Assembly (NCBI RefSeq): GCF_016863315.1 | Contig: NZ_BOOQ01000015.1 | Location: 62,001-126,000 of the forward strand | DNA length: 64,000 nt | Origin: Planotetraspora silvatica | GTDB lineage: Bacteria > Actinomycetota > Actinomycetes > Streptosporangiales > Streptosporangiaceae | Direction: 5' to 3' | Shown here: positions 3,170-21,617 of the stretch, piece by piece | Numbering within the stretch: position 1 is the stretch's first letter | Layout: each line of letters begins with the position of its first letter | Made by a program: the position numbers and the translations under genes | Notes under the pieces: model-generated | The model's database searches: none | What the model was told of the DNA's origin: nothing | Seen by the model: the letters and a program-made list of their open reading frames with translations, nothing else

Positions 3170-4993
3170 TCAGACGATGTCGACCTCGGCATGCGCCCGT
3201 CCGCCGGACAGCCGCGGATAACCGGGCCCGCGGTCGAAGAAGGCGTCCTGCCGCGTCCGCTTGGCCGCCCGCAGCCGCTCCGTCGCCTCGTCATCGATCC
3301 GCAGATCGTCGCGTGAGCCGTGCAGGACGACGCCGTAGTCGTCCCGCGCGGCCTCCGGGGAGACCTTCCCGTCGCGGACGTCGGCGGCCACCCGCCCGGC
3401 CTCCCGTTCGTACGGCGAGCCCCAACCGCCGCCTCCTGTGGTCCTGACGCGCACGATCTCCCCCTCCTTCACGGGGAAGTCGTCCACCAGGCCCTCCATC
3501 TCCTCGCCGTTCACCGTGACGAGAAAGGGACGGCCCGCCCGGCCGCCGTTCACGCCCCAGCACGCGAGGATCGACCGGTCCGCGATCGACATGAACGACG
3601 CGTCCCGCAACATGCGGATGTGCTTGTCGTAGCCGAGACCGCCGCGGAACTCCCCCGGGCCGCCGCTGTCGACGGCCAGCCCGAGCCGTTCGACCAGGAA
3701 CGGCCACCGCGCCTCGGCGAACTCCACGGGGATGTTGCGCGAGTCGGGGACGACGTGGATGGTGTCCTCCCCGTCGGCGTACCAGCGCCCGCCCGAGCCT
3801 CCGCCGAGGACCTCGCGCATCAGGTACGGGCCGTCGCCGGACTCGCCGTAGACCCCGGTGTAGCGGATGGTCTCCTGGTCGGCCGGCATGCGCCCGCCGG
3901 TCGCCTTGGCGAGCACGCCCGCCAGCACGCCGAGGAGCCGGAGGATCACGAACGTCCTGGCGTTGGTCGGCGCCGGGAAGATCGGGGTCAGCAGCGTGCC
4001 CTTCTCCGGGAACACCATCTTGATCAGCGGGACGACGCCCTCGTTGACGTCGAGTTCCGCCATCCGCTCCGGCGTGTCCGCGAGGTTGCGCAGGACCGGG
4101 GCGAGCCACTTCTTCAGGAAGACCCCGTCGGCGTAGTCGCCGGCGTGGTTGATCGGCCCCTTGGCCTGGGCGGAGGTCCCGGTGAAGTCGATCGTCAGGG
4201 GAACGTCCGCCGCGTGGTCGACGGTCAGGGTGATCCGCTGGGTGTGCAGTCTGGGCTCGTCGACGCCGTCGTGCTCGGCGTAGTCCTCCCAGACGTGCAC
4301 CCCCTCGGGGATCTTCGACAACAACTCCCTGCGGAAGGTCTCCGTCGTCTTCGCGATGATCGCGTCGAAGCAGGCCTCGACGGCCTCCCGCCCGTAGCGG
4401 TCGAAGATCTCCCCCAGCCTCCGGGCGCCCATCAGGCACGCGGAGCACTCGGCGTCCAGGTCGCCCGCGAGCGAGTCGGGCATGCGCGAGTTGCGCGTCA
4501 TGATCGTGAGTGCCGCACGGTTGGGCACGCCCTGGTCCCAGAGCTTGATCGGGGGGACCATCAGGCCCTCCTCGAACGCGCTGCGCGCGTGGGACGGCAT
4601 CGAGCCCGGCACCGCCCCGCCGATGTCGTCGTGGTGCCCGAACGCCTGGACGAAGGCCACCACCTCTCCCTGGTGGAACACCGGCACGGTCACGCACAGA
4701 TCAGGCAGGTGGCCGATCCCGCCTTCCGACAGGTAGACGTCGTTGTGGAAGTAGACGTCGCCCGGCCTCATCGTCCCGATCGGGAAGTCCCGGACGACGG
4801 GCTGGACCAGCGCCGAGTAGGACCTGCCGGTCAGCTTGCGCAGCCGTACGTCGTGGATGCCGGCGCGGAAGTCGTGCGCGTCGCGGATCATGGGCGAGCG
4901 GGCGGTCCGCGCGATCGAGGTCTCGACCTCCATCTCGACCGACGCGAGCGTCCCCTCCACGATCTCCACCAGAATCGGGTCGACGTCGGTCAT
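3170..4993 (-). CDS. hyuB: Hydantoinase B / oxoprolinase family subunit, 607 aa
   Basis: This is the partner subunit of ATP-dependent amidohydrolases and carboxylases (N-methylhydantoinase, 5-oxoprolinase, caprolactamase, acetone carboxylase). The N-terminal half has the family pattern with FGHHDDIGG near residue 140, and the C-terminal half is Gly-rich with TTGGGGWGSP. The length is normal. The start ATG overlaps the hyuA stop as ATGA (4990-4993), so the two subunits are translationally coupled. Substrate cannot be told from sequence; the neighbouring molybdenum hydroxylase, NCS2 permease and PucR point to a cyclic amide or nucleobase-like compound. Confidence 0.9.
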   Translation of the reverse strand: MTDVDPILVEIVEGTLASVEMEVETSIARTARSPMIRDAHDFRAGIHDVRLRKLTGRSYSALVQPVVRDFPIGTMRPGDVYFHNDVYLSEGGIGHLPDLCVTVPVFHQGEVVAFVQAFGHHDDIGGAVPGSMPSHARSAFEEGLMVPPIKLWDQGVPNRAALTIMTRNSRMPDSLAGDLDAECSACLMGARRLGEIFDRYGREAVEACFDAIIAKTTETFRRELLSKIPEGVHVWEDYAEHDGVDEPRLHTQRITLTVDHAADVPLTIDFTGTSAQAKGPINHAGDYADGVFLKKWLAPVLRNLADTPERMAELDVNEGVVPLIKMVFPEKGTLLTPIFPAPTNARTFVILRLLGVLAGVLAKATGGRMPADQETIRYTGVYGESGDGPYLMREVLGGGSGGRWYADGEDTIHVVPDSRNIPVEFAEARWPFLVERLGLAVDSGGPGEFRGGLGYDKHIRMLRDASFMSIADRSILACWGVNGGRAGRPFLVTVNGEEMEGLVDDFPVKEGEIVRVRTTGGGGWGSPYEREAGRVAADVRDGKVSPEAARDDYGVVLHGSRDDLRIDDEATERLRAAKRTRQDAFFDRGPGYPRLSGGRAHAEVDIV

Positions 4994-7032
4994 CGGTCGC
5001 TCACCACCACGAGGTTGCCGTAGTCGTCCATGGTCGCCGTGAAGCCGGGGTGCACCGGCAGGGTCGAGCCGTATTCCTCGATGACCGCGGGGCCGGTCAC
5101 CACGGCGCCCGCGCGGAGGTCGCCCCGGCGGTAGATCACCGTGCGGCCCCACCGTTCGTAGAACACGTCCCGCGTCGCCACCGGGCTCGGCTCGTCCGGC
5201 TGGTACGGCAGGCGCGCGATCTTGGGGCGGGTGATCGGGCCGATGCCGGAGACCCGCAGGTTCACCCATTCGACGGCGTGGCGGGAGTCGTCGCGGTAGC
5301 CGTACCCGTAGAGCCGCTGGTGCGCCTCGTGGAACCGGTCCACGACGGCGGCCCGCCAGCCCTCGTCCGGCGGCCCGTCCGGGGCGGGCACCCTGACCTC
5401 GTAGGCCTGGCCGTAGTAGCGGAGGTCGGCGCTGCGCGCGTACACGTGACTCGCGAAGCCCTCGCGGTCGAGCGCGGCGGCGGCCTGGCCCTCCAGTTCG
5501 GCGAACACGGCCCGCAGCGTCTCCTGCGAGGGGTCGCGGGAGACGTGGGTGCGGACGTAGTCGTTCTTCACGTCCACTGTGAGCAGGCCGAACGCCGACA
5601 CGTTGCCCGGGTTCGGCGGGACGATCGCCGCGCGGAGGCCGAGGACGTCGATCAGCCGGCAGGCGAGCAGCGGTCCCGAGCCGCCGAACGCGACCATCGG
5701 GAAGTCCCGCACGTCGAGGCCGCGTTTGACGGTGATCTGGCGGATCGCGTTCGACTGGTTGAACGCGCTGATCTCGAGGATGCCGGTCGCGCATCGCTCG
5801 GGCGACAGTCCGAGCTTGCCCGCCAGCGCCTCGATGCCCGCCCTGGCCGCGGAGACGTCGAGCGGGATCTCGCCGCCGAGGAGGTGGGGAGGCACCCGGC
5901 CGAGGAAGACGTGGGCGTCGGTGACGGTGACCTCCGTGCCGCCTCTGCCGTAGCAGAGCGGTCCCGGGTCGGCGCCCGCCGACTTGGGCCCGACCTTCAA
6001 CGTGCCCTCACGGGAGATCCAGGCGATCGACCCGCCGCCCGCGCCCACGGTCACAATGTCGATCATCGGGATCTTGCAGGGGTACCTGCCGACGTTGCCC
6101 TCGGTCGTCAGGGAGGGTTCGCCGTCGACGACCACCGCCACGTCGGTGGACGTGCCGCCGCCGTCGAGCGTGATCACGCCGGGGTGGCCGGCCGTGCCGG
6201 CGATCAGGGCGGCGCCGAGGGCGCCCGCCGCGGGCCCGGACAGGACCGTCGTGATCGGCTGGTGGACCACCTCGGACGCCGACAGCACGCCGCCGTTGCT
6301 CTTCATCACCGAGAAGGGGCGGCCGAGCCGGTCCGACAGGTTGCCGATGTACCGCCGCATGATCGGTTTGACCGCCGCGTCGACGAGCGTGGTGACCGAC
6401 CGCTCGTACTCCCGGTACTCCCGCAGGACGTCGCTCGACAACGAGACGACCGCGTCCGGATGCTCACGCTCGATGACCTCGCGCATGCGCCGTTCGTGGT
6501 CGGGGTTCGCGTAGGAGTGCAGGAAGCACACGCCGATCGCGGTGACACCGTTGCCGGCGAACCAGCGTGCGGCCTGTACGGCTCCCGCCTCGTCGAACGG
6601 CCTGATCTCCCGCCCGAGATGGTCGAGCCGCCCGCCGACGGTGCGCACCCGGTGCACGGGGACGATCCGGGGCGGCTTGACCCAGAAGTAGGAATTGCCG
6701 TAACCGTCCGGGACGCTCTGCCGGGCGATCTCCAGGATGAACTCGAAACCCTCGGTCGTGACGAAGCCCAGGTGCGCGGTGCCGTCGGGACGGTCCTCGA
6801 GCAACTGGTTGGTGGCCACCGTCGTTCCGTGGACGATCGCGGACACGTCGCCGAGATCGCCCGAGCCGGTATGGAGCTCCAGGACCTTGTGGACACCTGC
6901 CATGAACCCATCGGCCGGATTGGCAGGTGTCGAAGGAGTCTTGGTCGTGACGATCTCACCGGTCTCCTCGTCGACCAGGACGACGTCCGTGAACGTGCCC
7001 CCGGTGTCGACCCCGATGCGGACGCTACCCAT
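4990..7032 (-). CDS. hyuA: Hydantoinase A / oxoprolinase family ATPase subunit, 680 aa
   Basis: This is the ATP-using subunit of the HyuAB amidohydrolase. An ASKHA-type phosphate-binding loop, VDTGGTFTDV, lies at residues 7-16, and a second Gly-rich nucleotide site, LDGGGTSTDV, follows in the middle of the protein. The start ATG 7032 is chosen because homologues begin just before this loop. A GGAG is only one base upstream, so the exact initiation is uncertain. It forms an operon with hyuB (4-base overlap) and probably with the CoxG-like gene, which ends 160 bases upstream. Known family reactions couple ATP hydrolysis to opening or carboxylating stable amide or ketone substrates. Confidence 0.9.
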   Translation of the reverse strand: MGSVRIGVDTGGTFTDVVLVDEETGEIVTTKTPSTPANPADGFMAGVHKVLELHTGSGDLGDVSAIVHGTTVATNQLLEDRPDGTAHLGFVTTEGFEFILEIARQSVPDGYGNSYFWVKPPRIVPVHRVRTVGGRLDHLGREIRPFDEAGAVQAARWFAGNGVTAIGVCFLHSYANPDHERRMREVIEREHPDAVVSLSSDVLREYREYERSVTTLVDAAVKPIMRRYIGNLSDRLGRPFSVMKSNGGVLSASEVVHQPITTVLSGPAAGALGAALIAGTAGHPGVITLDGGGTSTDVAVVVDGEPSLTTEGNVGRYPCKIPMIDIVTVGAGGGSIAWISREGTLKVGPKSAGADPGPLCYGRGGTEVTVTDAHVFLGRVPPHLLGGEIPLDVSAARAGIEALAGKLGLSPERCATGILEISAFNQSNAIRQITVKRGLDVRDFPMVAFGGSGPLLACRLIDVLGLRAAIVPPNPGNVSAFGLLTVDVKNDYVRTHVSRDPSQETLRAVFAELEGQAAAALDREGFASHVYARSADLRYYGQAYEVRVPAPDGPPDEGWRAAVVDRFHEAHQRLYGYGYRDDSRHAVEWVNLRVSGIGPITRPKIARLPYQPDEPSPVATRDVFYERWGRTVIYRRGDLRAGAVVTGPAVIEEYGSTLPVHPGFTATMDDYGNLVVVSDR

Positions 7033-7141
7033 GCTCCAGTGTTTACCGATCGCGACCGGCACCGGGAACCGGCGCACTCTGCCGAAGAAAACTCATCCCG
7101 TCGTCAGACCCTGCCACCAGGGACCGGAGAGGCCGGGTCGT

Positions 7142-7151
7142 GTCTGACAAA
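7142..7151 (-). promoter_or_regulatory. Possible regulator box upstream of hyuA
   Basis: The minus strand reads TTTGTCAGAC about 110 bases before the hyuA start. It differs by one base from TTTGGCRGAY boxes found upstream of the NCS2 permease and of the DUF2877 operon. A shared PucR-type site is a guess; chance matches are possible at this length. Confidence 0.2.
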
Positions 7152-7192
7152 TCAAGCCCTGCCGCGCGCGGCCGGCATTTGTCGGGCGCTCC

Positions 7193-7882
7193 TCAGCGGC
7201 GCCGGCCCGACCGCCCGAGCAGCCAGCCGATCACCGCGCTTCCCAGCGCGATCCCGGCGCCCATGCCGAACGCGGTCAGCACCGGCCAGACGGGCGTGCC
7301 CTTCTGGGCCGCCGGCTCGGGGGAACGGGTGAAGACCTGGGCTCCGGGCGCCGCCGCGGCCGCCTCCCCGGAAACGACCCCGGCACCGGAAACGACCCCG
7401 GCACCGGCGGCGGACACGACCTCGGCGCCGGGCACCGCGACGGGTACGGACACCAGATGCCGCTCGACGGCGGTGAAGAACTCGCCGGCCGTCCTCTTCG
7501 CCACCGAACCGAGCATGCGCTGGCCGACTCCCCCGATCATGCCGCCCACGACGGCCTCGGCGTCGTAGTCGACGCGGGTCCCGCCCTCCGCGTCGCTGAG
7601 CCGTACCTGCACGGTGGCCTCGACCGTTCCGGGAGCCCCCTGGCCGCGTGCCCTGAGCACGAAGCGCTCGGGCTCGTGCTGGTCGGCGAGGGAGACCTCA
7701 CCCTGATAGACGCCCTTGATCGACGCGACCCCCGCCGCGACCGTCATCTTGTAGGCGTCGCCGCCGATCTCCTCCAGGCGCTCGCAGCCGGGGATCGTCC
7801 GCACCAGGACGGCGGGGTCCTGAAGCGCGTCCCAGACCCGCTTGCGCTCGACTGCGAGCAGTGCACTGCCAACGACCTTCAT
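7193..7882 (-). CDS. coxG: CoxG-like SRPBCC protein with C-terminal membrane anchor, 229 aa
   Basis: Residues 1-145 match the CoxG / SRPBCC fold: an N-terminal MKVVGSALL strand, RVWDALQDP, IPGCERLEE and the Gly-rich segment VVGGMIGGVGQRM. A low-complexity Ala/Val/Gly linker follows, containing the tandem segment GAGVVSGAGVVSG. The end is one hydrophobic helix, then RSGRRR. Start ATG 7882 has CGGAGGT upstream. CoxG proteins accompany molybdenum hydroxylases of the CODH family and help attach them to the membrane or quinone pool. Here the gene lies on the hyuAB side, separated from the hydroxylase genes by cydAB on the other strand. Confidence 0.85.
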   Translation of the reverse strand: MKVVGSALLAVERKRVWDALQDPAVLVRTIPGCERLEEIGGDAYKMTVAAGVASIKGVYQGEVSLADQHEPERFVLRARGQGAPGTVEATVQVRLSDAEGGTRVDYDAEAVVGGMIGGVGQRMLGSVAKRTAGEFFTAVERHLVSVPVAVPGAEVVSAAGAGVVSGAGVVSGEAAAAAPGAQVFTRSPEPAAQKGTPVWPVLTAFGMGAGIALGSAVIGWLLGRSGRRR

Positions 7883-8097
7883 GGGCACCTCCGATGCCGA
7901 GCACACTAGACAATCTCCGGGACCGGCGAGTACGGCAAGATCTGCCTCCCCCTCGCGGCGGAGTTACTCAGAAGTTCACACGTCACCCGGTCGTCGCAGC
8001 GGTACTCATGCCCAATCGGTCGGTCGGCGTACAGACGGATCACCCGTGTGGCGGATGTCCGTCCCGCCGGGCGAGCCGACCATTGATGGCGTATCTC

Positions 8098-8139
8098 CGG
8101 GATTCACAACATCTGTTCTTCGGGATTCACAACACCTGT
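8098..8139. repeat. Tandem 19-bp direct repeat upstream of cydA
   Basis: CGGGATTCACAACATCTGT (8098-8116) is repeated as CGGGATTCACAACACCTGT (8121-8139), one mismatch, 23 bases apart, which is about two helical turns. Each copy has TTCACAA, the half-site of the redox sensor Rex that represses cyd genes in Streptomyces, but not the full inverted Rex site. It lies 112-153 bases before cydA. Confidence 0.6.
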
Positions 8140-8250: not shown

Positions 8251-9639
8251 ATGGACGCGCTGGACCTGGCACGGTGGCAGTTCGGGGTCACCACCGTCTA
8301 CCACTTTCTCTTCGTACCCCTGACGATCGGCCTCGGCGTCTTCGTCGCAGGACTGCAGACGGCGTGGTACCGCCGCACACGCAAGGGCGGGGACGGCGAG
8401 CACCTGCTGAGGCTCACCAAGTTCTTCGGCAAGCTCTTTCTGATCAACTTCGCGATGGGGGTCGTCACCGGGATCGTGCAGGAGTTCCAGTTCGGGATGA
8501 ACTGGAGCCAGTACTCGATCTTCGTGGGCGACGTCTTCGGAGCGCCGCTGGCGATGGAGGCGCTGCTCGCGTTCTTCCTGGAGTCGACCTTCCTCGGCCT
8601 GTGGATCTTCGGCTGGGAGCGGCTGCCACGCAGGGTGCACCTCGCCTGCCTGTGGGCCGCCGTCATCGGCTCCAACCTGTCCGCGTACTTCATCCTCGCC
8701 GCGAACGCGTGGATGAAGCACCCCGTCGGCTACGAGGTGGTCGGCGGCCGGGCCCGGATGACCGACCTGTGGGCCGTGCTGACCAACTCGACGGCGCTCG
8801 CCCAGGTGCCCCACGTGGTCGCGGGCGCGTTCGTCGTGGCCGGCGGTTTCGTGATCGCGGTCAGCGGCTACCGGATCCTGCGCGAGGGATCGGGCGGGAC
8901 GGCCGGCATGTGGCGGACCAGCCTGCGCGGCGCCCTCGTCATGACCGCGATCGCCGGGATCGTGGTGGCCGGCACCGGCGACCAGTCCGCGCGCATGCTC
9001 CGTGAGCAGCAGCCGATGAAGCTCGCCGCGGCCGAGGGCCTGCGCCACGACACGGCCGGCGCGCCCTTCAGCGTGGTGCCGGGCCTCGAGGTGCCCGATC
9101 TGCTGAGCCTTCTGGCCGCCCACGACCCGCAGGCCGTGGTCCAGGGCATGGACGACGTCCAGCGGCGGTACGCGGCCGCCTTCGGGCCCGCCGACTACAC
9201 GCCGAACCTGCCGGTGGTCTTCTGGTCGTTCCGCGTGATGATCGTGTTCGGCATGACGACCGTCGGGCTGTCCGTGCTCGGCCTGTGGCTCACCCGCCGG
9301 AGACGGCGCACGACGGCGCTCCCGCGCTGGTTCGCCCGCCTCTGCGTGCTCGCGCTGCCCCTGCCCACGGTGGCGATCGTCGCGGGCTGGCTGCTCAGCG
9401 AGATCGGCCGCCAGCCCTGGACGGTGCAGGGCGAGCTCATGACCGCGGCCAGCGTGTCGCCCGGCGTCGCCCTGACCGAGGTGGCCGCCACCCTGGCGGG
9501 ATTCACCCTCCTGTACGGCGTGCTCGCCGTCGCGGAGGGCGTCCTGCTGATGCGCCACGTCAAGGCCGGTCCCGAACCGATGCCGGTCGAACCGGTCCCC
9601 TCCGACGAGGCGCGGCTGACGCCGACCCTCATGTACTGA
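8251..9639 (+). CDS. cydA: Cytochrome bd quinol oxidase subunit I, 462 aa
   Basis: Subunit I oxidises quinol and carries haems b558, b595 and d in the membrane. It begins MDALDLARWQFGVTTVYHF, with the conserved early His region, and contains GMNWSQYS and the Glu-rich helix LAMEALLAFFLEST typical of CydA. Length and about nine membrane helices fit the short Q-loop class common in actinobacteria. Start ATG 8251 follows GAGGGGG. cydB follows after 10 bases. cydCD are not in the window. Expression is probably controlled by the hairpin and direct repeats upstream. Confidence 0.97.
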   Translation: MDALDLARWQFGVTTVYHFLFVPLTIGLGVFVAGLQTAWYRRTRKGGDGEHLLRLTKFFGKLFLINFAMGVVTGIVQEFQFGMNWSQYSIFVGDVFGAPLAMEALLAFFLESTFLGLWIFGWERLPRRVHLACLWAAVIGSNLSAYFILAANAWMKHPVGYEVVGGRARMTDLWAVLTNSTALAQVPHVVAGAFVVAGGFVIAVSGYRILREGSGGTAGMWRTSLRGALVMTAIAGIVVAGTGDQSARMLREQQPMKLAAAEGLRHDTAGAPFSVVPGLEVPDLLSLLAAHDPQAVVQGMDDVQRRYAAAFGPADYTPNLPVVFWSFRVMIVFGMTTVGLSVLGLWLTRRRRRTTALPRWFARLCVLALPLPTVAIVAGWLLSEIGRQPWTVQGELMTAASVSPGVALTEVAATLAGFTLLYGVLAVAEGVLLMRHVKAGPEPMPVEPVPSDEARLTPTLMY

Positions 9640-9649
9640 GGAGCATCCC

Positions 9650-10594
9650 ATGACGCTGACGACGTTCTGGTTCATCGTGATCGCGTTCCTCTGGACGGGC
9701 TACTTCGTCCTGGAGGGGTTCGACTTCGGCGTGGGCGCGCTGCTTCCGCTGCTGTCCCGGTCCGAGGCGGACCGCCGGCAGGTCCTCACGACGATCGGGC
9801 CGGTCTGGGACGGCAACGAGGTCTGGCTGATCACGGCCGTCGGCGCGATGTTCGCCGCCTTCCCCGCGTGGTACGCCCACATGCTCAGCGGCTTCTACCT
9901 CCCCCTCTTCCTCGTCATCATCGGGCTCATCGTGCGCGGCGTCGGCCTGGAGTGGCGCGGCAAGGTGACCTCCCGGCGGGAACTGGCGCTCTGCGACGCC
10001 GGGATCGTGGCGGGCAGCGTGCTCCCCGCGTTCCTGTGGGGCGCGATCTTCGGGCACATGCTGTACGGCACGGCCGCGGCGGCCGCGGTCGGCGGCGCGC
10101 TGTCGCTGGCGATGGCGACGCTCCACGGCGCGGTGTTCGTCGCGCTGCGGACGACGGGGCCCGTCCGGGCCCGCGCCAGAAGGGCCGCGCTCCTGGTGTC
10201 GGCGGGTGCGGTCCCCCTCGCGGCGGTCGCGCTGCCGTCCGTGCCCGGGTCGTCCGCCCTGACCGTTCCCGACTGGTCCGCGTCGCCGTTCCTGTGGGCC
10301 TCGGCGCTGGCCGCCATGGCCGCCCTGGCGTCGGGCGCCGCACTGATCTGGCGGCGCAGGGAGGGCTGGGCGTTCGCCGCCACCGCGGGCGCGATCGTGT
10401 TCACGACGGCCACCCTGTTCGGGGCGCTCTGGCCGGCCCCGATGCCCGGGATCACGGTCACGGAGGCGGCGTCCGCGCCCTACACCCTCACCGTGCTCAC
10501 CTGGCTCGGCGTGATCGCCCTTCCCGGGGTGATCGCCTACCAGGCGTGGACCTACTGGATCTTCCGCAGGCGCGTCTCCGCCCGCAGCGAGTAG
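9650..10594 (+). CDS. cydB: Cytochrome bd quinol oxidase subunit II, 314 aa
   Basis: It begins MTLTTFWFIVIAFLWTGYF and has the CydB signature LEGFDFGVGALLPLL at about residues 23-37, then WDGNEVWLIT. Several membrane helices follow. It is the structural partner of CydA and forms an operon with it, with GAGGAG upstream of ATG 9650. Its last 43 bases overlap, on the opposite strand, the 3' end of the molybdenum hydroxylase large subunit gene, which is unusual for two full-length conserved genes. Confidence 0.97.
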   Translation: MTLTTFWFIVIAFLWTGYFVLEGFDFGVGALLPLLSRSEADRRQVLTTIGPVWDGNEVWLITAVGAMFAAFPAWYAHMLSGFYLPLFLVIIGLIVRGVGLEWRGKVTSRRELALCDAGIVAGSVLPAFLWGAIFGHMLYGTAAAAAVGGALSLAMATLHGAVFVALRTTGPVRARARRAALLVSAGAVPLAAVALPSVPGSSALTVPDWSASPFLWASALAAMAALASGAALIWRRREGWAFAATAGAIVFTTATLFGALWPAPMPGITVTEAASAPYTLTVLTWLGVIALPGVIAYQAWTYWIFRRRVSARSE

Positions 10595-13451: not shown

Positions 13452-14347
13452 GCCCGTCCCTCCCCCGCGTCGTTTGCCCCGCTCCGGGCCGCGTCCTGGG
13501 CCGCGCCGCGCAGGGCCCGCGTGACGAGCACCCCGGTGAGGTGCCGCCGGTAGCCGGCCGTCGCGTGGATGTCGCCCTCGGGCTCGATCCGGTCCTGTAC
13601 GGCTCTCGCGACCTCGTCCCAGTCGACGGACGCCGGGGGGCGCTGGCCGCAGACGCCGGTCACGTCGACCACCACGGGGACCGGGCCGACGCTGACGCAC
13701 GCCACCCGGGCCGCGATGATCCGGAAGTCCTCGTCCAGCGTGACGGCGGCGGCCACTCCGGCCACGGCGTAGTCGCCGTGGCGCCGGGCCACCTCGCAGA
13801 ACGCGGTGCCCGACCGCTCGGGCAGCGCGGGGAAGAACGCCGACACCGCCATCTCTCCCGGCAGGCAGGCCGACTCCAGCGGCCCGACGAAGAAGTCCCG
13901 GGCGTGCACGTCGCGCTCGCCCCCGAGGCGCGCCAGCCGTACGGAGCCTCCGAGGAGGGCGAGGACGGCGGGCATCTCCGCGGACGGATCGGCGTGGACG
14001 AGGCTGCCGACGACGGTCCCGCGATTGCGGATGACGGGATGGGCGACCAGCGCGAGTGCCTGGGCCAGCAGCGGCTGGACGGCGCGCGCGGAGCCGTCGC
14101 GTTCCACGGCCGCGTGCCGGGCCAGGGCGCCCACCCGCACACCGGACGCGTCCGCGGATATCGTGGCGAGCTCCGTCAGGCCGTTGATGTCGACGAGGTG
14201 CCCGGGCGCGGCCAGCCGCATGTTGAGCAGCGGGATCAGGCTCTGGCCCCCCGCCAGCACCTTGCCGTGCGAGCCGGCCTCGGCGAGGGCCTGGAGCGCC
14301 TCGCCGAGACCGGCGGGCCGGTGATAGTCGAAGGGGGGTGGCTTCAC
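13448..14347 (-). CDS. Molybdenum hydroxylase FAD subunit, CoxM type, 299 aa
   Basis: The protein begins MKPPPFDYHRPAGLGEAL and has AGGQSLIPLLNMR, the first FAD-binding motif, at about residue 37, then NRGTVVGSLVHADPSAE, the second. This is the flavin subunit that transfers electrons from the Fe-S subunit to the external acceptor. It starts at GTG 14347, 18 bases after the permease stop, and overlaps the small-subunit start. Gene order permease-M-S-L makes one operon. Confidence 0.94.
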   Translation of the reverse strand: MKPPPFDYHRPAGLGEALQALAEAGSHGKVLAGGQSLIPLLNMRLAAPGHLVDINGLTELATISADASGVRVGALARHAAVERDGSARAVQPLLAQALALVAHPVIRNRGTVVGSLVHADPSAEMPAVLALLGGSVRLARLGGERDVHARDFFVGPLESACLPGEMAVSAFFPALPERSGTAFCEVARRHGDYAVAGVAAAVTLDEDFRIIAARVACVSVGPVPVVVDVTGVCGQRPPASVDWDEVARAVQDRIEPEGDIHATAGYRRHLTGVLVTRALRGAAQDAARSGANDAGEGRA

Positions 14348-14365: not shown

Positions 14366-15736
14366 TCAGCCTGCCGTCGCGTCTCGCTCGAATCCGATCT
14401 CCCCACCGGAGACCTCCTTGTCCGGACGGCGCGCCATCGCGCGCAGCAGGTGATATCCACCAAGTACCACTATGGTGCCGAGCGTGATGCCGGCTAGCGA
14501 GAAATCGTCGGTGATCTGGTGCGTCACGGGGCCCACCGCGAGGATGATCCCCGCTCCGATCGGGACCATGTTGACCGGATCGGAGAAGTCCACCCGGTTC
14601 TCGATCCAGATCTTCGCGCCCAGCAGGCCGATCATGCCGTACAGGATGACCGTGATGCCGCCCAGCACGCCTCCGGGCGTGGCGGCGACCAGGGCGCCGA
14701 ACTTCGGGATGAAGCCGAACAGGATCGCCACGACGGCGGCGATGTAGTAGGCGGCCGTCGAATAGACGCGGGTGGCCGCCATGACGCCGATGTTCTCCGC
14801 GTAGGTGGTCGTCGGTGAGCCGCCGACCGCGCTCGCGAGTGCGGTGCCCACACCGTCGCCGATGATGGCCCGGCCGACGAGCGGGTCGACGTCCGTGCCG
14901 GTCATCTCGCCGACGGCCTTGACGTGGCCGACGTTCTCCGCGATGAGCGCGATGACGGCGGGCAGGACGAGGACGACCGCCGAGGCCTGGAAGGTCGGCG
15001 CGTGGAAGCTGGGCAGGCCGAACCAGTCCGCCGCCGTCACGTTGCCGAAGTTGACGCGGGGATGCGTGTCGATCTGGCCGGTCCCGGCGTTGAGGGCGGT
15101 GATGTTCCCCCAGATCTTGTCGACGAGCCAGGACACGGCGAATCCGAAGACCAGGCCGAGCAGGATGCCGATCCGGCCGAGGAAGCCCTTGAACACCACG
15201 AGGAACACGCCGGTCGCGCACATCGTGACGAGCGCGATCCACGGATCCTGGGGCCAGTAGATGTCGGCCACCACGTACGCGAGGCCGAGCCCGATCAGCA
15301 TGACCACCGCGCCGGTCACCACCGGAGGGAAGATCTTGTGGATGATCTGCACGCCGAGGTAGTGGATGGCCACGCCGACCGCGGCCAGGACCAGGCCGGC
15401 CACCAGGATCGCGCCGGTGACCGTCGCGCTGTCGCCCTGGGCCGCGCGGATGGCCGCGACGGCGCCGACGAACGACGCCGACGTCCCGAGATAACTGGGG
15501 ATCCTGCCCTGCACGATGAGCAGGAAGATGATCGTGGCGACGCCCGACATCATGATCGCGAGGTTCGGGTCCAGACCCATGACGAGCGGGAAGACGAATG
15601 TCGCGCCGAACATCGCGATCACGTGCTGGGCGCCGAAGCCCGCCATCCGCGGCCAGCTGAGCCGCTCGTCGGGCTTGACCACCTCGCCCGGCGCGAGGCC
15701 TCGTCCCTCACCGTGGACAGTCCATCGAAATGCCAT
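14366..15736 (-). CDS. NCS2 family nucleobase permease (uracil/xanthine type), 456 aa
   Basis: An integral membrane protein with about 12-14 helices. The motif GSPTTTYAENIGVMA is the NCS2 signature and looks most like UraA-type uracil permeases; AENVGHVKAVGEMTG marks the substrate-site helix. ATG 15736 is preceded by AAGGGG. It is the first gene of the operon with the molybdenum hydroxylase subunits, so it probably imports the substrate of that enzyme. A nucleobase or analogue is likely; uracil versus xanthine or urate cannot be settled by reading. Confidence 0.92.
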   Translation of the reverse strand: MAFRWTVHGEGRGLAPGEVVKPDERLSWPRMAGFGAQHVIAMFGATFVFPLVMGLDPNLAIMMSGVATIIFLLIVQGRIPSYLGTSASFVGAVAAIRAAQGDSATVTGAILVAGLVLAAVGVAIHYLGVQIIHKIFPPVVTGAVVMLIGLGLAYVVADIYWPQDPWIALVTMCATGVFLVVFKGFLGRIGILLGLVFGFAVSWLVDKIWGNITALNAGTGQIDTHPRVNFGNVTAADWFGLPSFHAPTFQASAVVLVLPAVIALIAENVGHVKAVGEMTGTDVDPLVGRAIIGDGVGTALASAVGGSPTTTYAENIGVMAATRVYSTAAYYIAAVVAILFGFIPKFGALVAATPGGVLGGITVILYGMIGLLGAKIWIENRVDFSDPVNMVPIGAGIILAVGPVTHQITDDFSLAGITLGTIVVLGGYHLLRAMARRPDKEVSGGEIGFERDATAG

Positions 15737-15869
15737 GTGAGCCCCTTCAGCTAAACGGGCCGTGGGCCGGTGGCCACCCCGCAGGCGTCCCGCCGCGGCG
15801 TTTCGTGCCGGTCGATCTCGACCGTTTGCCGGGACTGTAAGACCGCTGCGGCCGTTAGACATGGGCATG

Positions 15870-15947: not shown

Positions 15948-16166
15948 TCAGGGGGAGGCGATCACCCGGATCTCGAAGCCGTCGCCGCTGACGACCTGAC
16001 CTGCGCGGATCTTGCACGCCTTGCGCAACTCCACGTCGCCGTCCACCAGGACGTTCCCCTCGGCGATGAGATGTTTGGCCGCGCCGCCGCTCTCGGTGAC
16101 GAAGCAGAATTTCAGCAGGTCGCAGAGGGGGATGTAGTCGCCTCTGAGCTCGAAGGTCTCTCTCAC
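15948..16166 (-). CDS. Small S4-domain RNA-binding protein, 72 aa
   Basis: The whole protein is one S4 fold: it has LCDLLKFCFVTESGGAAKHL followed by the strand pair GNVLVDGDVELRKACKI. It resembles YbcJ / RlbA-type single S4 proteins that bind structured RNA, often the ribosome. It starts at GTG 16166. It lies 15 bases downstream of pucR on the same strand, so it may be co-transcribed with pucR. Its presence in a catabolic cluster is unexplained. Confidence 0.85.
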   Translation of the reverse strand: MRETFELRGDYIPLCDLLKFCFVTESGGAAKHLIAEGNVLVDGDVELRKACKIRAGQVVSGDGFEIRVIASP

Positions 16167-16181: not shown

Positions 16182-17795
16182 TCAGATGCCACGCATGCGG
16201 AGCACGTGGAGCGCCAGGGTCAGGTTCAGCCTCAGGTGGGCGTCCTCGGTGAAGTTGCCGAGCAGCCGCTCCAGCTTGCCGATCCGGTAGCGGAGCGTGT
16301 TGTAGTGGAAGTGCAGCCTGCGTGCCGTCTCGGCGACGTTGAGGTTGGTGTCCAGCAGCACCTGCAGGGTTCTGCGCAGGTCGGCGTTCTCCACGTCGTC
16401 GTCCCCCGCGAGCGACCCGAGCGTCTCCCGGACGAACGCGTGGAGTTCGTCGGTGTCGTTCACCAACGACAGCAGCCGGTAGACGCCGAGCTCGTCGAAG
16501 TGGGCGACGGCCCCCGACCCGTGGAGCTGACGCCCCACCCTGGCGGCCTTGAGCGCCTGGCCGTAGGCCGCGGGAAGGGAGTCGGTCCCGCCCGAGACCC
16601 GGCTGAGCCCGGTCGAGAACGTGCCGTCGGTGATGGCGGCCAGCGCGTCCCTGGCGAGCCGGGGGGCGTCCACGTCGGCTCCGACGATGGCGACGACCTC
16701 ATGGGAGAAGCCGGCGACCGCGCCCTTCGGGTCGTACTTGCGCACCGCCGCCTGCCAGGCCGCGAGCATGCGGTCCTGCGCCGAGCGCTCGTCGGCGTCC
16801 GGGTCGATCTCCGCCACCAGCACGCTCACGGGGCGTTCCAGATTCCAGCCGAAGGCCTGGGCGCGTTCCGCGACCCGCGTCCCGCCCCGGCCGGTGAGCA
16901 CGTCCCGCAGGAAGTCGGCGCGGTACTTGCTCTCGACGGCGGTGATCGCCTCCTGCCGGGTGATGACGAGGGCCACGACTGTCGCCGCCCGCTCGAGGAT
17001 CCCGATGTCGCTCGGGGTGAGCGTGCCGGCCGCGCTGAACGCGGCGATCCTGCCGTGGTGGTGGCCTCCGGCCACGACCGGGACCGCCACGTAGTGCCCG
17101 TCGGCTCCCGTCACGGGTTCCACCGTCGGCGCGGGCGTCCCCGCTCCCGCGCCGTGCGCCTCCCGCAACATCGTGACCTGTTCGGCGTCGCCCGCGGTGG
17201 CCAGGAGCCGGCCGGAGGCGTCGACGGCCGCCACGGCCGCGTGCAGCAGCCCGGCGACCTCGGCCGTCACCTCGCGCATCCCCCCGCCCGCGAGCACGAT
17301 CTGCACGAGGGCCCGGTGCGCCTCCTCCGTCCGCGCGAGTATCGCCGCGTGCCGGTTGAGGATGTCGGTGAGCACCTGGTTGAGGATGTCGTCGAAGCCG
17401 ACGTCGTTCGGCAGCAGGATCAGCGGGAAGCCCAGCCTGTCGGCCTGCTCGACCATCTCTCCTGGCAGTTCGTCCAGATAGCGACCGAGTTTGATCGCGA
17501 GGGCGGCGAGCCCCCGCTCGTCGAGGTCGGCCACAAGGCGGTCGAGCGACTGCGGCGTGTTCCGAAGCGGATATCCCGTCGTGAGCAGCAACTCGTGCGG
17601 CTTCACCCACGCGAGGATGTCGGGGACCTCCATGACGTTCAGCCGCTGGACGATGCGGTCGAGCCCGCTCTTGCCGGCGATCAGCCGGGCGTCCGCCAGG
17701 GTCGACACCCCGAGCACCTCGCCCACCGAGACACCGTGGAGGATCGTTCCCGTGCTGGCCAGGCGCATTGCCGGGGGGGCCGGGTCCATCGTCAT
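16182..17795 (-). CDS. pucR: PucR family transcriptional regulator, 537 aa
   Basis: The N-terminal PucR domain (about residues 20-145) contains VSVGEVLGV and LNVMEVPDILAWVKPHELLLTTGYPL. A GAF/GGDEF-like sensory middle follows, and the C-terminal HTH (about 480-530) has LLDTNLNVAETARRLHFHYN and YRIGKLERLLG. PucR regulators control purine degradation in Bacillus and other nitrogen-ring catabolism in actinobacteria. Three in-frame ATGs are close together; the one at 17795 has the best spacing from GGAG. It is divergent from the DUF2877-fdrA-DUF1116 operon and next to the hydroxylase operon, so it is the likely local regulator. Confidence 0.92.
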   Translation of the reverse strand: MTMDPAPPAMRLASTGTILHGVSVGEVLGVSTLADARLIAGKSGLDRIVQRLNVMEVPDILAWVKPHELLLTTGYPLRNTPQSLDRLVADLDERGLAALAIKLGRYLDELPGEMVEQADRLGFPLILLPNDVGFDDILNQVLTDILNRHAAILARTEEAHRALVQIVLAGGGMREVTAEVAGLLHAAVAAVDASGRLLATAGDAEQVTMLREAHGAGAGTPAPTVEPVTGADGHYVAVPVVAGGHHHGRIAAFSAAGTLTPSDIGILERAATVVALVITRQEAITAVESKYRADFLRDVLTGRGGTRVAERAQAFGWNLERPVSVLVAEIDPDADERSAQDRMLAAWQAAVRKYDPKGAVAGFSHEVVAIVGADVDAPRLARDALAAITDGTFSTGLSRVSGGTDSLPAAYGQALKAARVGRQLHGSGAVAHFDELGVYRLLSLVNDTDELHAFVRETLGSLAGDDDVENADLRRTLQVLLDTNLNVAETARRLHFHYNTLRYRIGKLERLLGNFTEDAHLRLNLTLALHVLRMRGI

Positions 17796-17867
17796 CATGC
17801 GCTCCGGGGTGTCAAGGGCTCACGCCGATTGTGCATGATCGACCCGACTGTCAGGAAGAGCCAAGCA

Positions 17868-17877
17868 TTTGGCGGAC
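17868..17877 (+). promoter_or_regulatory. Possible PucR box in the pucR / DUF2877 divergent region
   Basis: TTTGGCGGAC, followed 3 bases later by TTGGCAGC. The word matches the box upstream of the permease operon with one change. It overlaps the small dyad CCAAGCATTTGG (17861-17872). TTGG-containing sites are known for Bacillus PucR, which makes this plausible but unproven. Confidence 0.3.
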
Positions 17878-17879
17878 TG

Positions 17880-17910
17880 TTGGCAGCTTTCTCCGTACGG
17901 AGCGTGCCAA
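17880..17910. promoter_or_regulatory. Nested palindromes between pucR and the DUF2877 operon
   Basis: TTGGCA (17880-17885) and TGCCAA (17905-17910) form an outer inverted repeat around the perfect 12-bp palindrome CTCCGTACGGAG (17891-17902). The arrangement lies in the only intergenic space that could drive both divergent transcripts. A dimeric regulator site is likely, PucR being the obvious candidate. Confidence 0.4.
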
Positions 17911-17953
17911 CGTCGTTCTAGCGTCGGCAGGAACTGGCTTGTCGGGAGGTTCG

Positions 17954-18874
17954 GTGACTGTTGGGACGCGCCCGAAAGCCCGGCGGGCGGCGTCGCCCGC
18001 CTTCCGGGGCGTGGGGAGCCACACGTATGTGAGCGGGGCGGCGAGCGCCTCGCTGCGCCCGGCCCTCGAGTCGCCGCGCCGCCCGGCACGCGTGCTCGCG
18101 GCCTTCCCGCTCGCCGTCTACCTCGAGGTCAGGAGCGAGACCGAGCCCCACGTCATCACGCTCGTGACCGGGGGGGCCATCCGCCTGCCCAACGCCGTCG
18201 TGGTCGGCGACCTGCTGGACGGCATCGCGGCGGGAGACGACGGCTGGGTCGGGGACGGGGTCATCGAGATCGGCGGGCTCGCCATCCGGGTGCGCCGCTG
18301 GTGGGACCCCGCGCCGCCGCTCGGCTCCGCCGCCCTCGTACGGCTGTCGCGATCGGCCGGCCTGCTCGGCGAGGTCAGACGGCGGTCGCCGAGGCAGCCG
18401 GGGCTGGACCCGGCCGGGGCTCCGAGCCTTCTCGACACCGGCTGCAGGACGGGATCGCTGACCGACGCCATCACGGCGGCCGAGCGCCTGATCGGGCTGG
18501 GCCCGGGGCTGACGCCCAGCGGCGACGACATGCTCTCGGGCCTCCTGGTCGCGCTGCGGCATCTCGGCGGGGCGACCGGCACGCCGAGGGCCGTCTGGCT
18601 GGCCGACTGGCTGGCGGCGGCCGTCACCTACGACGCCCGCACCCGCACGACTCCGATCTCGGCGACGCTGCTCCACTGCGCCGCGAAAGGCGAGACGAGC
18701 CCCGAGGTGACCGGGGTCCTGCGGGCCGTGGCGGGGCGCCAGCCCCTGGAACCGGCGACGCACCGCCTGCTCCACCTGGGTCACACCTCAGGCGCCGACA
18801 TCGCCTGGGGAATCCAGATCGGCCTGTCCGCCGTCCTGTCCCACGCCGTCCATTCCAACGGGGAGCCTTCTTGA
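17954..18874 (+). CDS. DUF2877 protein, AllH (YlbF)-like oxamate carbamoyltransferase component, 306 aa
   Basis: The signature GLGPGLTPSGDDMLSGLL of DUF2877 lies at about residue 180. In E. coli, the three genes fdrA, ylbE and ylbF (renamed allF, allG, allH) together encode oxamate carbamoyltransferase, which makes carbamoyl phosphate at the end of allantoin breakdown. Here the same three families occur in one coupled operon. Start GTG 17954 follows GGGAGG by 4 bases. The stop overlaps the fdrA TTG start (TTGA). The substrate here may differ from oxamate because no allantoin genes are in view. Confidence 0.85.
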   Translation: MTVGTRPKARRAASPAFRGVGSHTYVSGAASASLRPALESPRRPARVLAAFPLAVYLEVRSETEPHVITLVTGGAIRLPNAVVVGDLLDGIAAGDDGWVGDGVIEIGGLAIRVRRWWDPAPPLGSAALVRLSRSAGLLGEVRRRSPRQPGLDPAGAPSLLDTGCRTGSLTDAITAAERLIGLGPGLTPSGDDMLSGLLVALRHLGGATGTPRAVWLADWLAAAVTYDARTRTTPISATLLHCAAKGETSPEVTGVLRAVAGRQPLEPATHRLLHLGHTSGADIAWGIQIGLSAVLSHAVHSNGEPS

Positions 18875-20235
18875 GCGATCTGGTCGAAGTGCGTGCCGGG
18901 GTCTACCACGACTCGGTGAGCCTCATGCGGGTGAGTCAGGCCCTCGCGGCCCGTGCCGGCGTCGAGGTGGCCGTCGTGGCGATGGCCACGGAGCTCAACG
19001 TGGATCTGGCCCGCGACCTCGGCTTCGCCGTACCGGCCGCGACGGGCGGCGACCTGCTCGTCGCGATCAGAGCCTCGGGGGACGCGCGACTCGAGGAGGC
19101 GTCGGCCGAGCTCGACCGGCAGCTCACGGCCAGGGCGCCGGCCGGCGGGACGGACGCCCGGGACGCACCGCCGCGCACCACCCGTTCGGCGAGCAGGGCG
19201 TGGGACGCGACGGTGGCCCTCGTGAGCGTTCCCGGCGAGCACGCGTTCGTGGAGGCGGCCGACGCCGTCGAGGCGGGCCTGTCCGTCATGATCTTCAGCG
19301 ACAACGTCCCGGTGGAGCAGGAGATCCTCCTCAAGGACCGCGCCAGGGACAAGGGCGTGCTCGTGATGGGCCCCGACTGCGGCACCGCCGTGATCGGCGG
19401 TGCCGGTCTGGGCTTCGCCAACGTCCTGCGGCCCGGCCGGGTGGGCGTCGTGGCCGCCTCGGGCACCGGCGCGCAGCAGGTGACGAGCCTGCTCGACCAG
19501 GCCGGGGTCGGTGTCAGCCACCTCCTCGGGGTCGGCGGCAGGGACCTGTCCGCCCAGGTCGGCGGCCGCTCGACGACGCAGGCGCTGCTGGCCCTCGACG
19601 AGGACCCGGCGACCGAGCTGATCGTGCTGGTCTCCAAACCCCCCGCCCCCGAGGTCGCGACTGCCGTACAGGAGCTGAGCCTGTCCAAGCCCGTCGTCCG
19701 CGCGCTCCTCGGGCCGGGGCAGGACGACCTGACGACGGCCGTGGAGAAGGTGCTGGGCGCCCTCGGCGTCCCGGTGCCCGAGTGGCCGTCGTGGCCGGCC
19801 GGGCCTCCGCCGGTCCCGGGAGGGCCGCTGCGCGGCCTGTATTCCGGGGGCACGCTCTGCACCGAGGCCGCCCTCATCGCGGGCACCGGCGAGTTCACCG
19901 ACTTCGGCGACGACGAGTACACGCGGGGCCGGGCGCATCCCATGATCGACCCCGCTCTCCGCCTGGAGGCGCTCGCCGCGGTGGAGACGGGCGTCGTCCT
20001 GCTCGACGTGGTCCTCGGTCACGGGTCCGATCCCGATCCGTCGGCGTCGCTGGCGCCGGCCGTCGAGAAGGCGTGCGAGCGCGGCGTGGCCGTCGTGGTC
20101 GCGCTCGTCGGGACGGAGGGCGACCCCCAGGGCCTGCGCGCCCAGGCCGCCCGCCTGAACGAGGCGGGAGCCGCCGTCTTCACGTCCAACGCCGCCGCGG
20201 CCCGCCACGCCCGCCTCCTGATCGGAGCCTCATGA
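18871..20235 (+). CDS. fdrA: FdrA (AllF)-like protein, 454 aa
   Basis: FdrA belongs to the acyl-CoA synthetase-like Rossmann family. Visible features are GVYHDSVSLM at the start, DNVPVEQEILLKDRARDKG, MGPDCGTAVIGG and VVAASGTGAQQVTSLLDQAG, followed by LLGVGGRDLS. These are the nucleotide- or phosphate-binding loops of the family. Start TTG 18871 overlaps the DUF2877 stop, with GGGAG 5 bases upstream. It ends ATGA-coupled to the DUF1116 gene. It should be one subunit of a carbamoyltransferase complex like E. coli AllFGH. No carbamate kinase gene follows. Confidence 0.9.
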   Translation: MSDLVEVRAGVYHDSVSLMRVSQALAARAGVEVAVVAMATELNVDLARDLGFAVPAATGGDLLVAIRASGDARLEEASAELDRQLTARAPAGGTDARDAPPRTTRSASRAWDATVALVSVPGEHAFVEAADAVEAGLSVMIFSDNVPVEQEILLKDRARDKGVLVMGPDCGTAVIGGAGLGFANVLRPGRVGVVAASGTGAQQVTSLLDQAGVGVSHLLGVGGRDLSAQVGGRSTTQALLALDEDPATELIVLVSKPPAPEVATAVQELSLSKPVVRALLGPGQDDLTTAVEKVLGALGVPVPEWPSWPAGPPPVPGGPLRGLYSGGTLCTEAALIAGTGEFTDFGDDEYTRGRAHPMIDPALRLEALAAVETGVVLLDVVLGHGSDPDPSASLAPAVEKACERGVAVVVALVGTEGDPQGLRAQAARLNEAGAAVFTSNAAAARHARLLIGAS

Positions 20236-21617
20236 CCCTCTCGATGTTGCTCGGCGAGCCGCGCGTGATCTCCGTGGGCGCGGCGGTGCTCGGCGAGGCT
20301 CTCGACCAGCAGGCCGTGCCGTGGACGCCGGTCGACTGGCGCCCGCCGCTGCCCGGCACGTCGGACGCCCTGGCCCGCGTGCTGGCCGATCCGCGCCGCG
20401 AGCGCGCCAACGCACTCGCCGTGGGGCGGCTGCTGTCGGCCCGCCCCCAACTGGTCGGTGTACGGCGGGCCCGCGACGTCCTCGGGCTGGAGCCCGGCAC
20501 GTTCTTCCACGCCGGGCCGCCGATCACCTGGGAGCGCGCCTCCGGCCCGATGCGCGGGGCGCTGATCGGGGCGATGTTGTTCGAGGGGCTGGCCTCCTCC
20601 CCCGAGGACGCGGAGCGCAGGCTCGCCTCCGGTGAGGGGATCACGCTCGACCCCTGTCACCACCACCGCACGGTCGGCCCGATGGCGGGGGTCGTCAGCC
20701 CGTCGATGTGGATGTTCGAGGTCACCGACGCCGAGCACGGGGGCACCGCCTACTGCTCGCTCAACGAGGGCCTGGGCAAGGTGCTGCGGTACGGCGCCTA
20801 CGGGACCGAGGTGGTCGAGCGGCTGCGCTGGATGGGCGAGGTGCTGGGGCCGGTCCTCCAGGCGACCCTCAGCCGCACCGGCCCACTCGACCTGCGGTCG
20901 CTCATCGCCCAGGCTCTGCAGATGGGCGACGAACTCCACAACCGGAACCGGGCGGCCACCTCGCTCCTGGTCCGCGAACTCGCCCCGGCGATCGTCGACG
21001 CCGCGCCGGATCGGGCCGCGGAGGTCCTGCGTTTCGTCAATGGAAATGATCATTTCTTCTTGAACGCGGGAATGGCCGCCGCGAAAGTGAGCGCCGACGC
21101 GGCACGGAACGTTCCGGGTTCCAGTCTCGTCGTCGCCATGGCACGAAATGGAACGGAATTCGGTATCCAGGTGTCCGGGCTCGGCGATCGCTGGTTCACC
21201 GGCCCCGCGGGCGTTCCCGACGGTCTGTACCTCGGCGCGTACGGCCCCGAGGACGCCAACCCGGACATCGGCGACTCGACCATCACCGAGACGTCGGGCC
21301 TGGGAGGCTTCGCGATGGCGGCCGCGCCGGCCATCGTGAGGTTCGTCGGCGGCGACGTGTCGGACGCCGTCGCGGCCACGACCTCGATGTACGAGATCAC
21401 GCTGGCCGAGCATCCGGCCTACCAGATCCCCGGGCTGGGCTTCCGCGGGACACCCGTGGGGATCGACGTCACGCTTGTCGCGAGGACCGGGATTCTGCCC
21501 GTGGTGAACACCGGCATAGCGGGCCGCGTGGCCGGAACCGGGCAGGTCGGGGCCGGTCTGGTGAGCCCTCCCGTGGAGGCCTTCACCGCGGCCCTGGAGG
21601 CCTTGGTTCTAGCATGA
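20232..21617 (+). CDS. DUF1116 protein, AllG (YlbE)-like carbamoyltransferase component, 461 aa
   Basis: The protein matches the YlbE/DUF1116 family in length and in order of conserved segments: LARVLADPRRERANALAVGR, GMAAAKVSADAARN and an Asn/His-rich middle with FVNGNDHFFLN. It follows fdrA with ATGA overlap and closes the operon. In E. coli the homologue is an essential part of oxamate carbamoyltransferase. I infer the same chemistry, transfer of a carbamoyl group to phosphate, with the true substrate unknown. Confidence 0.88.
   Translation: MTLSMLLGEPRVISVGAAVLGEALDQQAVPWTPVDWRPPLPGTSDALARVLADPRRERANALAVGRLLSARPQLVGVRRARDVLGLEPGTFFHAGPPITWERASGPMRGALIGAMLFEGLASSPEDAERRLASGEGITLDPCHHHRTVGPMAGVVSPSMWMFEVTDAEHGGTAYCSLNEGLGKVLRYGAYGTEVVERLRWMGEVLGPVLQATLSRTGPLDLRSLIAQALQMGDELHNRNRAATSLLVRELAPAIVDAAPDRAAEVLRFVNGNDHFFLNAGMAAAKVSADAARNVPGSSLVVAMARNGTEFGIQVSGLGDRWFTGPAGVPDGLYLGAYGPEDANPDIGDSTITETSGLGGFAMAAAPAIVRFVGGDVSDAVAATTSMYEITLAEHPAYQIPGLGFRGTPVGIDVTLVARTGILPVVNTGIAGRVAGTGQVGAGLVSPPVEAFTAALEALVLA

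Follow-up and report, generated by a model that had tools for sequence, protein, structure and literature searches.

The locus at positions 3170-21617 of the window, the stretch of 64,000 nucleotides from the Planotetraspora silvatica genome analyzed here (C15:62001-126000, C15 being the contig), is most likely one arm of an oxidative uracil/thymine degradation cluster that continues to the left of the window. This assignment is based on sequence comparison, namely on the gene families of the locus, on a barbiturase encoded on the same contig and on the co-occurrence and order of these genes across the class. An oxidative pathway for uracil and thymine was described in the 1950s (PMC3758960). 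Profile searches against Pfam and NCBIfam together with gene calling assigned the following features within the window:

3170-4993, minus strand: HyuB, B subunit of an ATP-dependent hydantoinase/oxoprolinase (PF02538, 449 bits)
4990-7077, minus strand: HyuA, A subunit of an ATP-dependent hydantoinase/oxoprolinase (PF05378, PF01968, PF19278)
7193-7882, minus strand: CoxG, membrane-anchored (PF06240; hydrophobic C-terminal stretch recognized by eye in the translation)
8251-9639, plus strand: cydA, cytochrome bd oxidase (PF01654)
9650-10594, plus strand: cydB, cytochrome bd oxidase (PF02322)
10552-12954, minus strand: molybdenum hydroxylase, large subunit (NF040766, 1515 bits, cut-off 950; PYRGAGR and GAGE motifs)
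12951-13451, minus strand: molybdenum hydroxylase, 2Fe-2S (FeS) subunit (PF01799, PF00111)
13448-14347, minus strand: molybdenum hydroxylase, flavin adenine dinucleotide (FAD) subunit (PF00941, PF03450)
14366-15868, minus strand: NCS2 nucleobase permease (PF00860)
15948-16166, minus strand: small S4-domain protein of 72 amino acids (PF13275, 85 bits)
16182-17798, minus strand: PucR-family regulator (PF07905, PF17853, PF13556)
17848-17902, no strand: operator-like conserved element in the PucR-AllH intergenic region, the two genes being divergent (conserved 12-mer CAGGAAGAGCCA)
about 18092-18874, plus strand: AllH-like transcarbamylase subunit, start uncertain (PF11392, 99 bits; no NCBIfam match)
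18871-20235, plus strand: FdrA (AllF)-like transcarbamylase subunit (PF00549; NF004760, 365 bits, under the cut-off of 433)
20232-21617, plus strand: AllG-like transcarbamylase subunit (PF06545, 330 bits)

The gene set that a preliminary description of this DNA had named for the region is borne out by these matches, and so is its form II molybdenum hydroxylase of three subunits: all three were matched, and the large subunit carries PYRGAGR at residue 365, while the form I motif (A/S)YRCS(F/L)R was not found. However, the collection given there missed cydA and cydB (8251-10594) and the S4-domain gene (15948-16166). On the minus strand the order is PucR, S4-domain gene, NCS2 permease, FAD, FeS and large subunit of the hydroxylase, followed by CoxG, HyuA and HyuB; AllH-FdrA-AllG are encoded on the plus strand, divergent from the PucR side. 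Since the cyd genes on the plus strand lie between the hydroxylase and CoxG, the minus-strand genes do not form one continuous operon. The set of AllFGH subunits is complete, with Pfam matches above cut-off for AllF (FdrA), AllG and AllH, and the domains of both HyuA and HyuB were found by Pfam. A protein kinase gene, which starts at 21735 after AllG, was excluded from the locus.

Among the NCBIfam models, the permease scored best on RutG (361 bits), followed by ncs2 (270 bits), uracil permease (255 bits) and pbuX (166 bits), with the first three matches under their cut-offs. This ranking and the relationship of ureidomalonate to oxalurate, of which it is the CH2-homologue, led to the hypothesis of an oxidative uracil pathway; the hypothesis was set down first, and the barbiturase family was searched for afterwards and found as predicted. 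An early idea, according to which parabanate derived from hydantoin is opened to oxalurate, was dropped upon finding the barbiturase. The left flank of the window contains the following genes:

C15:49968-51077, minus strand: barbiturase (NF052395, 475 bits; 590 bits to 5hwe)
C15:51078-52019, minus strand: carbamate kinase, immediately adjoining the barbiturase gene (arcC, 336 bits, cut-off 358; PRK12352, 302 bits, cut-off 266)
C15:57468-58259, plus strand: nitrilase-family gene (33% to the cluster nitrilase of other families)
C15:59138-60628, minus strand: fused AccD/AccA-like carboxyltransferase (from reading of the flank)
C15:60625-61707, minus strand: family III coenzyme A (CoA)-transferase (from reading of the flank)

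The barbiturase gene is located 14 kb from HyuB and, like the carbamate kinase gene, 10-12 kb to the left of the window start; both of them as well as the AccD/AccA-like and CoA-transferase genes are on the same strand as HyuAB. The absence of a carbamate kinase noted in the preliminary description therefore applies to the window, but not to the contig. The route proposed there, which leads from uptake through ring hydroxylation and ring opening to the transfer of a carbamoyl group to phosphate, agrees well with the gene set, although the ring may be opened by an enzyme other than HyuAB, because the barbiturase beyond the window edge belongs to the locus. Uracil and barbiturate were both among the candidate substrates that it listed.

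The solved sequence closest to the P. silvatica barbiturase is 5hwe ("Barbiturase," 590 bits), presumably from R. erythropolis, followed by a cyanuric acid hydrolase (329 bits). Five positions are reported to separate barbiturase from cyanuric acid hydrolases, with Asn194, His324, Lys328, Val348, and Ala349 as signature of the characterized barbiturase (PMC3758960). The P. silvatica enzyme matches this signature at all five positions in identical numbering, and in place of the cyanuric acid hydrolase residues (Arg195, Thr321, Arg325, Gly345, and Gly346 in AtzD numbering) it has Asn, His, Lys, Val, and Ala. After removal of duplicate genomes, 66 distinct barbiturase-family sequences were obtained over all examined loci, 59 of which read NHKV(A/S), one NYKVS and six RTRGG. 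All six sequences of the latter, cyanuric-acid type come from the genus of genome G071, in which 6 out of 59 genomes carry a copy of the family.

The grouping of these genes exceeds chance, as seen from their co-occurrence in the class and their kept order. In a class sample of 296 genomes, drawn evenly from the larger group, the hydroxylase was present in 62, HyuB (counted at E<=1e-100) in 64, AllG in 72 and the barbiturase family in 67 genomes. The hydroxylase occurred together with barbiturase in 61, with HyuB in 61 and with AllG in 59 genomes, all four being found in 59 (Fisher p < 1e-43, not corrected for kinship). Hydroxylases were counted above the NF040766 cut-off, the lowest accepted match reaching 1138 bits; the next one (881 bits) is a contig-edge fragment in G159, a HyuB-containing genome that was left out of the 62 as its copies are split over contigs. 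Positions were compared in 58 genomes, leaving out G063 with its barbiturase fragment (28.8 bits), which is included in the 59. All four genes were located on one contig in 37 of these 58, from seven families, and in all 37 the order was AllG-hydroxylase-HyuB-barbiturase. Thirty of these clusters lie within 50 kb, and the extent of the remaining seven ranges from 90 kb to 1.7 Mb; the distance between hydroxylase and HyuB was at most 50 kb in 47 of 61 class genomes. AllG without HyuB was found in ten genomes, a barbiturase-family gene without the other three in G071, G133, G140, and G162, and G054, a genome 72% complete, has no AllG.

A link to the characterized barbiturase is provided by the family of genome G302, in which 21 of 301 genomes gave a barbiturase match at E<=1e-60. 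The hydroxylase search in this family covered 19 of these 21 genomes and G302, leaving out a 41% copy of G633 and a fragment of G634, and found the hydroxylase above cut-off in 19 of 20 genomes (18 of the 19 with barbiturase), G556 having only a contig-end fragment. The barbiturase of G460 and the solved 5hwe share 367 of 369 residues. Genes for the hydroxylase (62%) with its FAD and FeS subunits, CoxG, NCS2, PucR, HyuAB, a CoA-transferase and a carboxyltransferase are located at most 35 kb away; the locus also holds an amidase, an aminotransferase, an NmrA-like gene (by similarity to a gene of L214) and, divergently oriented, a uracil phosphoribosyltransferase (262 bits, cut-off 114). A uracil phosphoribosyltransferase gene reportedly lies beside bar, and barbiturase is said to be narrow in specificity (both from a report of 2002). 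In the stretches read of eight Rhodococcus-like genomes (G460, G603, G473, G564, G571, G539, G438, and G610) no AllFGH-like genes were recognized, with no whole-genome search for AllG made there; each of these eight loci contains at least one amidase-family gene ("Rhodococcus-like" and "Nocardia-like" are genus guesses for genome handles). Another member of this family, G401, encodes AllH-FdrA-AllG and a carbamate kinase, with an amidase directly after AllG. This suggests two endings of the pathway, a hydrolytic one with an amidase, perhaps a ureidomalonase, and a phosphorolytic one with AllFGH and carbamate kinase. We know of no gene for ureidomalonase, the enzyme that yields malonate and urea.

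From the computed gene families, barbiturase residues, co-occurrence and gene order we infer every reaction of the following route, including uracil as its substrate, the malonamate step and the role of HyuAB. Uracil and thymine would be imported by the NCS2 permease and oxidized by the CoxG-linked molybdenum hydroxylase at the ring carbon beside N1, giving barbiturate or 5-methylbarbiturate, with the electrons going to quinone. The large subunit is thus proposed as the candidate catalytic subunit of a uracil/thymine dehydrogenase. As CoxG is reported to pass the electrons of carbon monoxide (CO) dehydrogenase to quinone (PMC13240472), it probably does the same, by analogy, for this hydroxylase. 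Barbiturase would open barbiturate to ureidomalonate. Phosphorolysis of this compound by the AllFGH-like complex could yield malonamate together with carbamoyl phosphate, from which carbamate kinase would form ATP. Malonate would be released from malonamate by a nitrilase- or amidase-family enzyme and converted via malonyl-CoA to acetyl-CoA by the CoA-transferase and the AccD/AccA-like protein. A second ring product, such as 5-methylbarbiturate, is probably the substrate that HyuAB opens.

Candidates for the malonamate step follow CoxG in several genomes: a nitrilase-family gene in G047, G054, G264, G222, G293, G088, and the Embleya record described below, and an amidase-signature gene in G241, whose solved relatives include GatA, biuret hydrolase and, weakly (<=80 bits), malonamidase E2. 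Malonamidase E2 is a malonamate hydrolase. HyuB has N-methylhydantoinase and a chain named "Hydantoinase" as its nearest solved relatives, and HyuA matches N-methylhydantoinase with 477 bits. HyuAB adjoins CoxG and the hydroxylase even in G302, where barbiturase and AllG are absent, and it occurs with both endings of the pathway. Being a near-constant partner of the hydroxylase (61 of 62 genomes) that is present with either ending, it fits a ring product not opened by barbiturase, such as 5-methylbarbiturate. A more specific proposal, for now a tentative and somewhat doubtful one, joins three assignments: cleavage of ureidomalonate by AllFGH, yielding ATP via carbamate kinase and not urea, identity of CO dehydrogenase group 5 with uracil/thymine dehydrogenase, and function of HyuAB as ATP-dependent 5-methylbarbiturase enabling the use of thymine.

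Several observations weigh against the uracil/thymine assignment, two of them being the names that NCBIfam gives to its central enzymes. The barbiturase is called cyanuric acid amidohydrolase by NF052395, with 475 bits above the cut-off of 360, as would be expected of a triazine locus in which the ring-opening hydrolase acts on cyanuric acid. Since the five specificity residues are all of the barbiturase type, the NCBIfam name is probably wrong for this enzyme and a triazine locus is highly improbable. The hydroxylase, in turn, is named CO dehydrogenase (NF040766, CODH_aero_grp5) and is accompanied by CoxG, which would agree with an aerobic CO dehydrogenase whose neighboring genes are unrelated to it. 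We regard this as highly improbable: PYRGAGR, and not the form I motif, is present in 114 of 114 distinct orthologs when read at aligned positions (118 of 121 in a looser pattern search), the activity of form II enzymes is described as unresolved (PMC13240472), and the linkage to barbiturase, HyuAB and AllG is fixed. The gene context suggests that the name CO dehydrogenase is misleading here.

A purine locus, in which the hydroxylase acts on hypoxanthine or xanthine and AllFGH on oxalurate as in the allantoin fermentation of E. coli, has to be considered as well. PucR, NCS2, and AllFGH are all known from purine use, and the P. silvatica genome encodes a uricase (C2:236826-237620, in two halves of 136 and 79 bits) and two allantoinases above cut-off (C2:232620-233873 with 537 bits, 3 kb from the uricase, and C31:92045-93382 with 516 bits), so that oxalurate may be the substrate of AllFGH. 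The preliminary description was right in reporting neither enzyme for the region it named, but both exist in the genome. Their location on other contigs, where the classical purine route is probably encoded, speaks against the present locus as a purine route. Xanthine dehydrogenase models moreover reached at most 410 bits on the large subunit compared to 1515 bits for CODH_aero_grp5, and the neighbors are barbiturase and, in G460, uracil phosphoribosyltransferase. A purine locus therefore appears improbable.

With barbiturase as ring opener, HyuAB is either redundant or active on another substrate. It could alternatively be the main, ATP-dependent opener of barbiturate, barbiturase being auxiliary or acting on another ring within the same pathway. 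In both G302 and G460, HyuAB is located beside CoxG and the hydroxylase, which points in this direction, as does the gene content of G302, which has hydroxylase and HyuAB without barbiturase or AllG. By contrast, 59 of the 66 distinct barbiturase-family sequences carry the characterized signature, and G245 has hydroxylase and barbiturase without HyuB or AllG; we thus consider HyuAB rather unlikely to be the main opener. These two genomes also depart from the gene grouping expected of the uracil/thymine cluster, as do G059 and G148, which contain AllG and HyuB with the hydroxylase not above cut-off. To the same side belong the lack of a close ortholog of the cluster-linked nitrilase in the Planotetraspora genome (best match 33%) and the result of the contig scan, in which no operator shared with the units of CoxG/HyuAB or carbamate kinase/barbiturase was detected upstream of them.

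Regarding regulation, the PucR-AllH intergenic stretch was readable in 76 named relatives, 68 of which have the 12-mer CAGGAAGAGCCA; in P. silvatica it was found at 17852 of the window. A longer 17-mer (at most four mismatches) had a single site in the 96 kb of the contig scanned. The intergenic element (17848-17902) contains two conserved dyads, GCCAA-N4-TTGGC and CTCCGTACGGAG, the first of which has further sites, with one mismatch each, away from the cluster genes (C15:45313 and C15:125542). One operator common to all units was rejected, as no shared site was found. Of the co-regulation expected for the operons, shared control of the divergent PucR and AllH units is hence plausible, while that of the HyuAB and barbiturase units is unsupported.

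Neighborhoods were compared in named relatives, comprising the best 80 of 225 confirmed large-subunit matches; as flanks did not exceed 10 kb and contig ends cut several loci short, the counts are lower bounds. Two species of Planotetraspora (Streptosporangiaceae) are the nearest of these relatives, with 96% for the large subunit. In tblastn searches, the three hydroxylase subunits were found in all 80, NCS2 and PucR in 78 each, AllH in 74, FdrA in 71, AllG in 67, CoxG in 44, HyuA in 27 and HyuB in 15 relatives, and all eight core genes were found in 65. The preliminary description had made its proposal depend on HyuAB and FdrA accompanying the hydroxylase in relatives. Genome-wide this is the case (61 of 62 hydroxylase genomes with HyuB, 59 of 62 with AllG); within 10 kb it applies to the transcarbamylase genes, but not to HyuA and HyuB. 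CydA and CydB were both found in 62 of the 80 relatives, inverted in L157 and L165. In the loci read from other families they do not separate the hydroxylase from CoxG; the cytochrome bd genes are an insertion in Streptosporangiaceae, outside the core set. The S4-domain gene (PF13275) between PucR and permease was called in 58 of 80. Two NCS2 permease genes were called in 13 of the 80 loci (L129, L131, L133, L138, and other Nonomuraea loci), and a LivFGHM-like ATP-binding cassette (ABC) transporter was seen by eye downstream in some Nonomuraea loci. Conserved non-core neighbors, of which a DsbA-like one was checked by Pfam, were uninformative; the neighbor labels "polysaccharide deacetylase," "thymidine kinase" and "LivFGHM-like ABC" were given by eye from sequence starts.

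Complete clusters were found in G293, G401, and Embleya sp. NBC_00888 (NZ_CP108785.1:2146549-2187640, with AllH unmatched). In G302 (L225 and L226), the hydroxylase-CoxG-HyuAB cluster is followed by genes resembling, by eye, the 5-oxoprolinase PxpAB; the gene calls of L225 missed the FeS gene. Among 60 relatives searched, including P. silvatica itself, 31 contained AllG, and 25 of 31 AllG neighborhoods (P. silvatica excluded, G028 counted twice) included the hydroxylase. The six without it were G028a, G043, G045, G059, G023, and G024, with G045, G023, and G024 cut by contig ends. The AllG of G028a is of another type, with genes for an isochorismatase-family protein and a carbamate kinase as neighbors, and G043 looks similar by eye. 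This second type of AllG-FdrA cluster, with isochorismatase-family hydrolase and carbamate kinase, was observed at L057:1-4114 and L058:17679-18638 and, by eye, at L075:1-3269. Its hydrolase resembles biuret amidohydrolase (275 bits, cut-off 370), and the cluster perhaps encodes a biuret- or ureide-specific transcarbamylase. Near the G037 cluster, an 8-oxoguanine deaminase-type gene was detected (L070:7129-8478; 650 bits, cut-off 532) beside genes resembling, by eye, those of molybdenum cofactor maturation.

The present analysis proposes genes for the enzyme oxidizing uracil and thymine to barbiturates, and ureidomalonate as a new substrate of an AllFGH-type transcarbamylase, which would give the pathway an ATP-yielding end. 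If true, the hydroxylase group labeled CO dehydrogenase would be a pyrimidine enzyme and should be dropped from counts of CO oxidizers. Among the open-access papers listed in the literature search, none had a title or abstract start that assigns the dehydrogenase gene or describes this branch, with subscription papers mostly outside this search.

Compared to known systems, the hydroxylase shares with the form II CO dehydrogenase-like enzymes (CODH_aero_grp5) a large subunit above cut-off and CoxG as partner, but differs from CO dehydrogenase in lacking the form I CO motif and in being linked to pyrimidine genes. HyuAB resembles N-methylhydantoinase and caprolactamase in having both subunits with their Pfam domains, although the subunits score under the caprolactamase cut-offs. 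The AllFGH complex of E. coli acts on oxalurate with carbamate kinase as partner (PMC11326118). As oxamate transcarbamylase it consists of the same three protein families, and a carbamate kinase is likewise present in the wider P. silvatica cluster; in contrast, the allantoinase genes of P. silvatica are on other contigs, and the substrate and product would be ureidomalonate and malonamate. For Rhodococcus erythropolis JCM 3132, the oxidative pyrimidine pathway is described as oxidation to barbiturate followed by barbiturase and ureidomalonase (PMC3758960). The type of barbiturase is the same, and in G460 hydroxylase, NCS2, and HyuAB are located near a barbiturase almost identical to the solved one, whereas the present cluster combines AllFGH-like genes with carbamate kinase where the Rhodococcus-like loci contain amidase-family genes.

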